Below the pieces are notes generated by a model that ran no database searches, had not been told where the DNA came from, and saw nothing but the letters and a program-made list of their open reading frames with translations. Source: Pseudomonas laurentiana (lineage in GTDB: Bacteria; Pseudomonadota; Gammaproteobacteria; Pseudomonadales; Pseudomonadaceae). Taken from it: 64,000 nt of DNA. Each line of letters opens with the position of its first letter. The stretch's first letter is position 1. Both the position numbers and the translations under genes were made by a program. Positions 42,170 to 43,741 of this stretch are shown here, in pieces. The stretch covers positions 124,001-188,000 of the forward strand of contig NZ_BMQU01000003.1 of NCBI RefSeq assembly GCF_014648275.1. Reading direction: 5' to 3'.

Positions 42170-42362
42170 GGCGCAGCCTGAACGGTTGAATTGGCACGAC
42201 GGCAGGGCTTTTCACAAGCGCTGTCCCCTGTGGCCTATTAAGTTCCTAACGAGCGGTAGGTGTCTTGACTCTGCGTGCCGACAGCTTTGACCCGGCCTGC
42301 CAGCGCAGGGGTTTTGCGCCGGGCAGCTTGACGGCAGCCCCGGCATTTCGGAAGATCGGTTC

Positions 42363-42419
42363 ATGAATACATTAATGACTTGTCGCAGCGACTATTACGG
42401 CTACCCGCTCATCCCATGA
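42363..42419 (+). CDS. Tyrosine-rich leader peptide before tyrS
   Basis: Eighteen codons read MNTLMTCRSDYYGYPLIP, then TGA. GGAAG lies eight bases before the ATG at 42363. Three tyrosine codons fall within four codons (Tyr-Tyr-Gly-Tyr) in a peptide placed 87 bases before a tyrosyl-tRNA synthetase start. After the stop, AGGCGG (42419-42424) can pair with CCGCCT (42446-42451). That pairing competes with a hairpin CCGAT-CCGCC/GGCG-ATCGG (42441-42463). This is the layout of amino acid attenuation. The peptide itself is presumably without other function. Confidence 0.6.
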   Translation: MNTLMTCRSDYYGYPLIP

Positions 42420-42463
42420 GGCGGTAGTTGCTGCGTGCACCCGATCCGCCTGAGGCGAATCGG
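42419..42463 (+). promoter_or_regulatory. Mutually exclusive stem-loops of the tyrS leader
   Basis: Stem A pairs AGGCGG (42419-42424) with CCGCCT (42446-42451). Stem B pairs CCGAT and CGCC (42441-42450) with GGCG and ATCGG (42454-42463), with one mismatch and a 3-base loop. They share bases 42446-42450, so only one can form. The tract after stem B is pyrimidine-rich but lacks a run of Ts, so control could be by Rho or translation rather than intrinsic termination. Confidence 0.45.
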
Positions 42464-42505
42464 ATAGCGCTCCCTTCTCCTCGGGCTTTACCCCTGGAGA
42501 CAGCA

Positions 42506-43741
42506 ATGAACGACACCCAAGACCGTTTGATCGACCACCTGCAGGCGCGGGGCTTTATTCACCAGAGCACCGACCTGGAAGCCTTGCGCACGCACCTGGC
42601 GACAGGCTCAAGAACGATCTACCTCGGCTTTGACGCCACCGCCGACAGCCTGCACGTTGGCCACCTGCAAGGCCTGATGCTGATGCGCTGGTTACAGAAG
42701 GCTGGCCACCGGCCGATCCTGTTGATCGGAGGCGCCACGACCCGTATCGGCGACCCGAGCTTTCGTGACGAGAGCCGGCCGATCCTCAGCGAAGCGCAGA
42801 TTCAGGCCAATATCGCCGGCATTACCCGCACGTTTGGCCGTTACCTGAACCTGGGTGAAGGTGCTGGCTTGGTCGTCGATAACGCCCAATGGCTCGATGG
42901 CATTGGCTACCTGCAGTTTCTGGATCAGGTGGGGCGCTACTTCTCCATCAACCGTTTGCTGACCTTCGACGCGGTTCGCCAGCGCCTGGACCGCGAGCAT
43001 TCATTGTCGTTTCTTGAGTTCGGCTACACCCTGTTGCAGGCCCACGACTTTACCGAGCTGGCGCGCCAGTACGATTGCACCGTGCAACTGGGCGGTGCTG
43101 ACCAGTGGGCCAATATCATCAATGGCGTGGAGTTGGGGCGCCGTCGCGACAATCGCCAGCTGTTTGGCCTGACCATGCCGCTGTTGACCAGCAGTGATGG
43201 CAAGAAAATGGGCAAATCGGTCAGTGGCGCTGTGTGGTTGGACGGCAGCCGCCTGGCACCGTTCGACTTCTGGCAGTTCTGGCGCAACTGTGATGACCGC
43301 GATGTCGGGCGCTTCCTGGCGCTGTTCACCGAGCTGTCGCTGGAAGAGATTCAGGCGCTCACGGCGCAGGGCGGTGCCGCGTTGAATCAGGCGAAGTGCG
43401 TACTGGCCGACCACGCCACGGCGTTGGCCCATGGCGAGGCGGCGGCGAAGCAGGCCCATGCGGCGGCGATTGCCGTGTTTGCCCATGGCGAGGCGGCAGA
43501 GCTGACCACGCTGACTATTCCTCGTGCCCAGGTGCAGGCGGGTATCACCCTGGCCGAGCTACTGGTCGAGACAGGCTTGCAAGCATCACGCTCGGCGGCA
43601 CGTCGTCTGGCCGAGGGGCGTGGGCTGCGGCTGGATGGGGCGCTGGTTGAGTCGGCTGAACTGGAAATGGACCGGCAGGCCAGCCAGTGGCGGGTGAGCC
43701 TGGGCAAGAAGCGTCATTTCGACATCAAGGTGGTGGGCTGA
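42506..43741 (+). CDS. tyrS: Tyrosyl-tRNA synthetase (second, accessory type)
   Basis: A 411-residue class I synthetase charging tRNA-Tyr. It has [16 protein letters not shown] (HIGH motif as HVGH, about residues 46-52), [15 protein letters not shown], and [13 protein letters not shown] (KMSKS motif as KMGKS). A C-terminal S4 RNA-binding domain follows ([33 protein letters not shown]). The sequence differs from the housekeeping Pseudomonas enzyme I recall (KMSKS, LHLGH), so it is the second type; Pseudomonas aeruginosa is known to carry two. GGAG lies seven bases before the ATG at 42506. Its neighbours are tyramine/4-HPA catabolic genes. Confidence 0.92.

Follow-up and report, generated by a model that had tools for sequence, protein, structure and literature searches.

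The accessory tyrosyl-tRNA synthetase gene tyrS of Pseudomonas laurentiana is likely to be controlled by a translational switch in which a ribosome, translating a leaderless and tyrosine-containing leader peptide, directs a relay of alternative RNA helices (1:2, 2:3, 3:3', 3':4 and 4:5) that ends at the gene's Shine-Dalgarno (SD) sequence. Judged by comparison among related loci, the leader and the RNA behind it very probably form an amino-acid-sensing switch, and the same comparison supports the view that the leader was built to turn tyrS on when charged Tyr-tRNA is short. The stretch of 64,000 nucleotides that was analyzed is called the window here; its coordinates are used throughout, and all the features located by them lie on the plus strand.

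The tyrS gene (42506-43741) encodes a protein of 411 residues that matches TIGR00234 with 342.3 bits (cut-off 113.8). A first-pass annotation of this DNA had called the synthetase "accessory," which is a fair label since the genome (223 contigs) encodes another TyrRS elsewhere, with 35% identity over residues 37-383. Few genomes of the genus have this type of tyrS, namely 12 of 399 including that of P. laurentiana (at E 1e-120); among the best 80 of 113 relatives the nearest named one is that of Pseudomonas defluvii (98%). The start at 42506 fits both the SD sequence and the relatives, unlike the TTG at 42428, an alternative start (437 residues) that a gene caller could select and that would hide the SD and the switch.

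The 18-codon frame that had been reported before tyrS is present: MNTLMTCRSDYYGYPLIP is encoded at 42363-42419, from the ATG at 42363 to the stop TGA at 42417-42419. Its Tyr codons are numbers 11, 12 and 14, so that the description of three Tyr codons in four stands (Tyr-Tyr-Gly-Tyr, TAT TAC GGC TAC, 42393-42404), but they had also been placed just before the stop, and there the codons for P L I P intervene. These putative sensor codons share bases with region 1, the 5' arm of the hairpin 1:2.

The first-pass annotation had staked its reading on the recurrence of the leader frame and its Tyr codons upstream of orthologous tyrS genes, and both are conserved. We compared 84 distinct relatives, taken from a search of the genus and from the best 80 of 113 relatives, with seven loci common to both. 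They comprise 46 with the gamma/beta leader, 13 with an alphaproteobacterial leader, 23 without a leader and two unclassed (L055, which has no upstream DNA, and L089, a partial match). The first 46 belong to Pseudomonas and its relatives, Massilia and other Oxalobacteraceae, Thauera, Pseudothauera, Caldimonas and Methyloversatilis. Together with the window they provide 47 leaders of 17-22 codons, each with two to four Tyr codons, and the pair YY is present in 45 of them. The 13 alphaproteobacterial relatives (ten Azospirillum, Telmatospirillum, Thalassospira and a Caulobacteraceae), of which seven were inspected closely, carry a different Tyr-Tyr leader of other sequence. Because the ORFs had first been chosen by their Tyr content, the count was repeated with a fixed rule: an ATG frame of 8-30 codons, containing YY or YxY, at most 320 nt upstream of tyrS. 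Such a frame was found in 44 of the 46 gamma/beta loci, in 13/13 of the alphaproteobacterial leader class and in none of the 23 leader-free relatives (0/4 Pseudomonas, 0/19 others); the corresponding rates in dinucleotide-shuffled upstream regions of these four groups were 0.010, 0.004, 0.019 and 0.028. The leader starts were set by eye, before the promoter described below was noticed, and the Tyr-containing frames of L075, L077, L086 and L091 were set aside as unclustered. Within the 47 leaders the variable sites at the three codon positions number 28, 36 and 48, a slight third-position excess. On this comparative evidence the Tyr leader is real and conserved.

The 23 relatives without the leader are four Pseudomonas and 19 Alphaproteobacteria genes (one labelled only Proteobacteria). 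The four, out of 50 Pseudomonas and betaproteobacterial relatives, form one clade nested within the leader-bearing clade (98% SH-aLRT), which would most simply reflect a single loss of the leader. Two single loci also deserve mention. In L089 (uncultured Robiginitomaculum) a frame MSARGQSYIYARRQSR with YIY lies upstream of the partial tyrS and satisfies the Tyr-cluster rule. In L033 (P. anguilliseptica MatS1) the tyrS reading frame runs into a TAG after 238 codons and its leader is intact; owing to this stop it was omitted from the protein tree, which has 46 of the 47 rows.

The leader has a promoter at a nearly fixed distance. The best sigma-70-like promoter ends 6-8 nt upstream of the leader ATG in 47/47 cases including the window (6, 7 and 8 nt in 10, 17 and 20 of them, with 0-23 nt scanned), and its score exceeds the 95th percentile of shuffled sequence in 44/47. 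The predicted promoter of the window (42328-42356) consists of TTGACG (42328-42333), a 17-nt spacer and GAAGAT (42351-42356), with 6 nt between its end and the ATG; the -10 element is a poor match, and a strict scan that required four of six positions in each hexamer found no promoter in the window. An SD word of four or more nucleotides stands ahead of the leader ATG in just 3/47 and ahead of the tyrS ATG in 47/47, the latter figure being partly a result of construction, as tyrS starts were picked with a preference for such a word. A promoter that ends so close to the ATG suggests that the leader is probably translated leaderless, from an mRNA beginning at or near its first codon. The "good ribosome site" with which the leader had been credited, GGAAG/GAAGAT at 42350-42356, is thus best read as a -10 box, and the start predicted from the promoter position, about 42363, agrees with the earlier expectation that transcription does not begin downstream of 42419. 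A leaderless start of this kind has been described for trpL of Sinorhizobium meliloti, whose attenuator RNA has the ATG of its leader at the 5' end (PMC7298713); unlike the switch proposed for tyrS, trpL acts by transcription attenuation of trpE(G) in response to tryptophan.

Behind and partly within the leader lie the strands of RNA that make up the alternative helices. Region 1 (42384-42405) is the 5' arm of 1:2, with a stem in the window at 42384-42394/42425-42435 and a family core at 42401-42405/42423-42427. Region 2 (42420-42435, GGCGGTAG...) may pair with region 1 or, if a stalled ribosome occupies the latter, with region 3; in many species GGCGGTAG includes the stop codon TAG of the leader. 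Region 3 (CCGCC, 42446-42450) has as alternative partners region 2 in the predicted on-state and region 3' in the off-state. In the off-state region 3' (TGAGGCGAATCGG, 42451-42463) would pair with region 3 and the flanking 42441-42444, and region 4 (TTCTCCTCG, 42475-42483), which contains the anti-SD (42475-42480), with the SD of tyrS; in the on-state regions 3' and 4 would pair with each other. This SD is region 5 (GGAGAC, 42496-42501). Regions 2 and 3 are joined by a linker (42432-42445 in the window), which contains a CGTGCACC-like motif in many of the tyrS leaders and of the ilvA leaders described below.

The predicted fold of the window contains 1:2 and 3:3' (42441-42463), with z -1.95 and 7/200 shuffles folding as well. 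Two hairpins that share bases had been proposed here; the exclusive competitor of 1:2 and 3:3' is 2:3. The range originally assigned to the element, 42363-42463, stops before the anti-SD, the SD and the 3':4 pairing. When RNAalifold was run unguided on the 47-sequence alignment (A1), it returned exactly two helices, 2:3 and 3':4, a pair that we take as the predicted on-state.

The alternative structures were then evaluated by their base changes. For the on-structure 95.7% of cells are paired (41-68% in slid controls), and it has 20 double-changed cells versus 4.9 +- 1.9 in shuffles (0/500); three of its pairs show a double change, which is not beyond the shuffles (2.1; 95/500), and slide +1 has four. 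Within it, 2:3 alone is paired in 100% of cells but is mostly invariant. The off-structure (1:2, 3:3' and anti-SD:SD) has 87.0% of cells paired, and 78.7% in the family core of 1:2 plus one pair; it shows 21 double-changed cells versus 8.6 +- 2.3 shuffled (0/500), and six pairs with a double change versus 4.0 (56/500), the latter again not beyond the shuffles. Slides of -1, +1, +2 and +3 give 6-9 such pairs and 8-27 cells. Since slide +3 (nine pairs, 27 cells) exceeds the true register, the off-state count is not decisive and a partner-swap test was therefore carried out.

In this test the strands of 25 of the 47 sequences, less than 80% identical, were paired with their own partner strands and with those of other species (5000 permutations; kinship is ignored, as it is in the shuffles). 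The own partner was preferred for 1:2 (z -4.0, 0/5000), 3:3' (z -2.7, p 0.0044), 3':4 (z -6.6, 0/5000) and 4:5 (z -4.9, 0/5000), and the control pairings 2:4, 1:3, 2:5, 3':5 and 1:4 gave no such preference (p 0.08 to 0.99). There was no coevolution signal for 2:3 (z +0.3, p 0.63) because both its strands are nearly invariant; a single pair of this helix shows double changes, in two sequences. Most telling, on inspection by eye, is the Massilia locus L036: the sequences of region 4 and of its two partner strands have all changed there, and they still match. Parsimony on the protein tree (46/47 rows) requires at least five changes of pair type at columns 117-159 and at least three at columns 118-158, which are central 3':4 pairs, with standard types counted. 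The compensatory changes anticipated by the first-pass annotation are therefore present in the stems. The helices 1:2, 3:3', 3':4 and 4:5 are supported by comparison, and the locus displays the mutually exclusive helices with covariation that characterize an attenuator, 2:3 itself being nearly invariant.

These strands suggest the following mechanism. Transcription would start at or beside the AUG of the 18-codon ORF, and this ORF would be translated leaderless. With Tyr-tRNA ample, the ribosome would reach the stop codon and cover region 2, and the 3:3' hairpin would form; region 4 would then be free to pair with the SD and tyrS would stay untranslated. Were the leader not translated at all, 1:2 would form and tyrS would likewise be off. 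Under a shortage of charged Tyr-tRNA the ribosome would halt on the Tyr codons, covering region 1 and leaving region 2 free to pair with region 3 once the latter has been transcribed. Region 3' would thereby be released and could capture region 4, the anti-SD, before the SD emerges, so that the SD would remain open and tyrS would be made. The Tyr leader, the helices 1:2, 3:3', 3':4 and 4:5, the geometry of ribosome positions and the promoter distance are based on comparison; we infer the role of the invariant 2:3, the leaderless start, the stalling, the order of folding and the response to tyrosine.

The edge of the ribosome is by convention taken as 12 nt past the first base of the A-site codon. 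On this basis a stall at the first Tyr codon leaves region 2 free in 47/47 leaders and a stall at the last in 45/47; in 47/47 region 1 lies at least partly under the stalled ribosome, and a ribosome at the leader stop covers region 2 in 47/47. In equilibrium folding the SD was shut in all four ribosome states (mean openness 0.03-0.04), and only 2/47 sequences opened it by more than 0.05 upon stalling. Simple equilibrium switching of the SD was rejected on this ground: as the SD is shut whatever the position of the ribosome, the on-state would have to be kinetic. In a partial transcript that reaches region 3, with the ribosome stalled, 2:3 formed in 45/47. When the transcript was cut after region 4, stalling raised the number of sequences with 3':4 above 0.5 from 20/47 (ribosome at the stop) to 27/47; 3':4 stayed at or below 0.5 in 20/47 including the window (from 0.13 to 0.29), and 2:3 exceeded 0.5 in only 3/47, with a mean of 0.09. 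L036 and L053 formed almost none of the named pairs in this partial-transcript folding. The weakest step of the relay model is thus that folding during transcription must keep 2:3 long enough.

This weakness invites a simpler wiring of the same SD trap, in which region 2 and helix 2:3 are uninvolved and the stalled ribosome or 3':4 decides. The lack of 2:3 coevolution in the swap test would be natural in such a scheme, as would the dissolution of most 2:3 once region 4 has been made and the formation of 3':4 without 2:3 in the 20/47 with the ribosome at the stop. But RNAalifold selects 2:3 along with 3':4, and in 47/47 region 2 sits where the position of the ribosome sets its freedom; we consider the simpler wiring fairly unlikely and retain the full relay through 2:3.

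The tyrS leader has sister leaders before other genes. A covariance model (R1) was built from it and, under strict filters in both genome searches, matched 87 of 199 Pseudomonas genomes and four of 398 genomes drawn from the phylum. Seven of the 87 have tyrS-type matches and the remainder belong to a weaker class, which is also represented by a second match in three of the seven, including P. laurentiana (G000:C2:52675-52844). In 15 of 16 weaker-class loci, taken from both searches and inspected by eye, an Ile-rich leader, for example MTFQALRRQPSIIITAIPHLAG, is followed by the start of a threonine ammonia-lyase gene. Loci with an Ile-rich ilvA leader include L098:1501-1661, which is the P. laurentiana locus just cited, L097, L099 and L105-L117; the gene of L098 is a threonine ammonia-lyase by TIGR01124, L099 being masked in that search. 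A filter parsed 48 of the 56 ilvA-type loci and left eight unparsed; a set of 22 ilvA representatives was drawn up without L141 and L099, and 18 of these with 20 of the 47 tyrS leaders make up set A2. In the parsed ilvA leaders the distance from the end of the best promoter to the ATG is 5-9 nt in 46/48, an SD word of four or more nucleotides precedes the leader ATG in 0/48, and the hairpin is followed by five or more T in eight nucleotides in 47/48 and by a run of four or more in 35/48.

The Rfam family RF00624, "Pseudomonas sRNA P9," whose function is to our knowledge listed as unknown, was matched by 4/4 ilvA leaders tested (L097, L098, L105 and L110) and, at E 0.1, by none of three gamma/beta tyrS leaders tested (L096, L094 and L036). 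The P9 locus, which was found by the tyrS-leader model, has a promoter layout, a leader peptide, a hairpin and an SD trap like those of the tyrS leader; it differs in its Ile codons and in the T-rich stretch after the hairpin. This shared design, together with the matches to RF00624, argues that P9 is most likely the attenuator RNA of ilvA, with an Ile leader. Other Ile-containing leaders of similar layout lie in L183 (genome G006, MNSRQNTSIIPTLDTRVG) and L175 (G869, MNTDLSLQHSRIILIIP), before what are, judged by eye, small P-loop ATP-binding proteins, and there is another in L184 (G003, MNSYRFLCANSIITTFT), before a short protein of another kind. Two weak model matches in P. laurentiana (L118 and L119) fall inside coding regions and were discounted as noise, as were four weak matches to model R2 (L185-L188).

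In the tyrS leaders T-runs are scarce: a run of four or more within 12 nt of the hairpin occurs in 2/47, and five or more T in eight nucleotides after it in 3/47. A terminator scan of the window found none at the hairpin; its one match, at 42538-42551, is within tyrS. The intrinsic terminator with a U-run, by which a transcription attenuator is recognized, is thus largely wanting in this group, and the SD sequestration by an upstream strand that typifies a translational attenuator is present, 4:5 being paired in 90.4% of cells over the 47 sequences in addition to its preference for the own partner. Scarce T-runs and an anti-SD:SD helix before tyrS together suggest that the output of the switch is most likely the translation of tyrS, through sequestration of its SD. 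No Rfam family, and hence no T-box, reached its gathering score in the window.

An unlikely alternative to this translational output is Rho-dependent attenuation, according to which shutting the SD leaves an untranslated C-rich RNA (42468-42492) on which Rho terminates transcription, making a switch of two layers. Such a C-rich stretch does precede tyrS in the window, and polarity is general in bacteria, but the stretch is not kept as sequence among the relatives; as a second effect it would be compatible with the relay. Classical transcription attenuation, with 3:3' as the intrinsic terminator and 2:3 as the antiterminator, had been the original proposal, and the leader peptide and the 1:2, 2:3, 3:3' layout are indeed those of trp-type attenuators, with the ilvA sister leaders being rich in T just behind this hairpin. 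It is very unlikely for tyrS, given how few of its leaders have T-runs, that the hairpin of the window is without a terminator, and that the coevolution of 3':4 and 4:5 would be superfluous. The 3:3' hairpin was accordingly rejected as a terminator for tyrS, with its few T-runs and no terminator at the hairpin of the window, and kept as one for ilvA. That the leader ORF senses nothing, and merely feeds ribosomes to tyrS by reinitiation or coupling or is there by chance, has hardly any probability in our opinion, for in spite of the weak codon-position signal its Tyr cluster is retained far beyond chance (44/46 versus about 1% of shuffles) and reappears in the 13 alphaproteobacterial leaders of other sequence, as an Ile cluster does in the same layout before ilvA.

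The distribution of tyrS copies was examined with the TIGR00234 cut-off, and in these counts kinship is ignored. Two TyrRS are present in 57/60 leader-bearing genomes (48/51 + 9/9), those without a second being PA7 (L026), P. oryzihabitans KNF2016 (L044) and L078, and a single one in 19/19 leader-free relatives outside Pseudomonas. The four leader-free Pseudomonas have two TyrRS each. This pattern fits a reserve enzyme that is turned on by failing charging of Tyr-tRNA. Three loci that have no Tyr leader, L007, L018 and L019, share a palindrome upstream of tyrS, ACCTATCGGTAGGT, which may be an operator for a DNA-binding repressor that replaced leader control; by eye, a short frame ends within the palindrome in L018 (MIAKTTYR) and L019 (MIAKATYR), but not in L007.

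In Proteobacteria the attenuators of the trp, his and pheST type have a leader peptide and are ribosome-mediated. The tyrS leader resembles them in having a peptide rich in the amino acid to be sensed and in that a stalled ribosome would select among exclusive helices; it differs in its near lack of a U-run terminator, its SD output, its relay strands and its presumed leaderless start. The resistance genes erm and cat have translational attenuators, in which the stalling of a ribosome on a leader ORF frees the SD of the next gene. The proposed tyrS switch would likewise open a sequestered SD by a stall on a leader ORF, but its trigger would be uncharged tRNA-Tyr and not a drug, its leader is without an SD, and the signal would pass through 3:3'. 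Attenuators have been described before the synthetase genes trpS and leuS of Streptomyces (trpS2 in S. avermitilis) (PMC1262725). These also place a leader peptide before an aminoacyl-tRNA synthetase gene, but in the accessible part of the source they are described as classical, and the amino acids and the phylum are others. In that part tyrS appears only in a reference title, and it is absent from the accessible parts of PMC2659441 and PMC4833913. Open-access full text contained no tyrS leader of this kind and nothing on "sRNA P9"; two subscription studies of proteobacterial attenuation, of 2004 and 2010, could contain such a leader. Relative to the known attenuators, the leaderless start, the relay to an SD trap, tyrosine as the signal and an accessory synthetase as the target would be new.

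We see about an even chance that all these leaders belong to one portable family of leaderless relay attenuators in Pseudomonas and its relatives, in which the promoter, the leader, the helices 1:2, 2:3, 3:3' and 3':4 and the SD trap constitute a single cassette of shared descent. The cassette would have been retuned by its leader codons (Tyr for tyrS, Ile for ilvA, that is "sRNA P9," and Ile-containing leaders before at least three other genes) and by its output, either translation only or a terminator plus the SD trap; the second synthetase would then be an emergency copy, expressed solely upon failure or inhibition of the housekeeping enzyme. Such a switch would be a compact amino acid sensor, in which a leaderless leader peptide is joined to an SD trap by a two-step relay, and it would provide for the control of a synthetase in Gram-negative bacteria, where T-boxes are not the rule. 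It may offer a function for the orphan "sRNA P9," as the Ile-leader attenuator of ilvA. It also suggests when the second TyrRS is made, and by this the use of duplicate synthetases would become directly testable.
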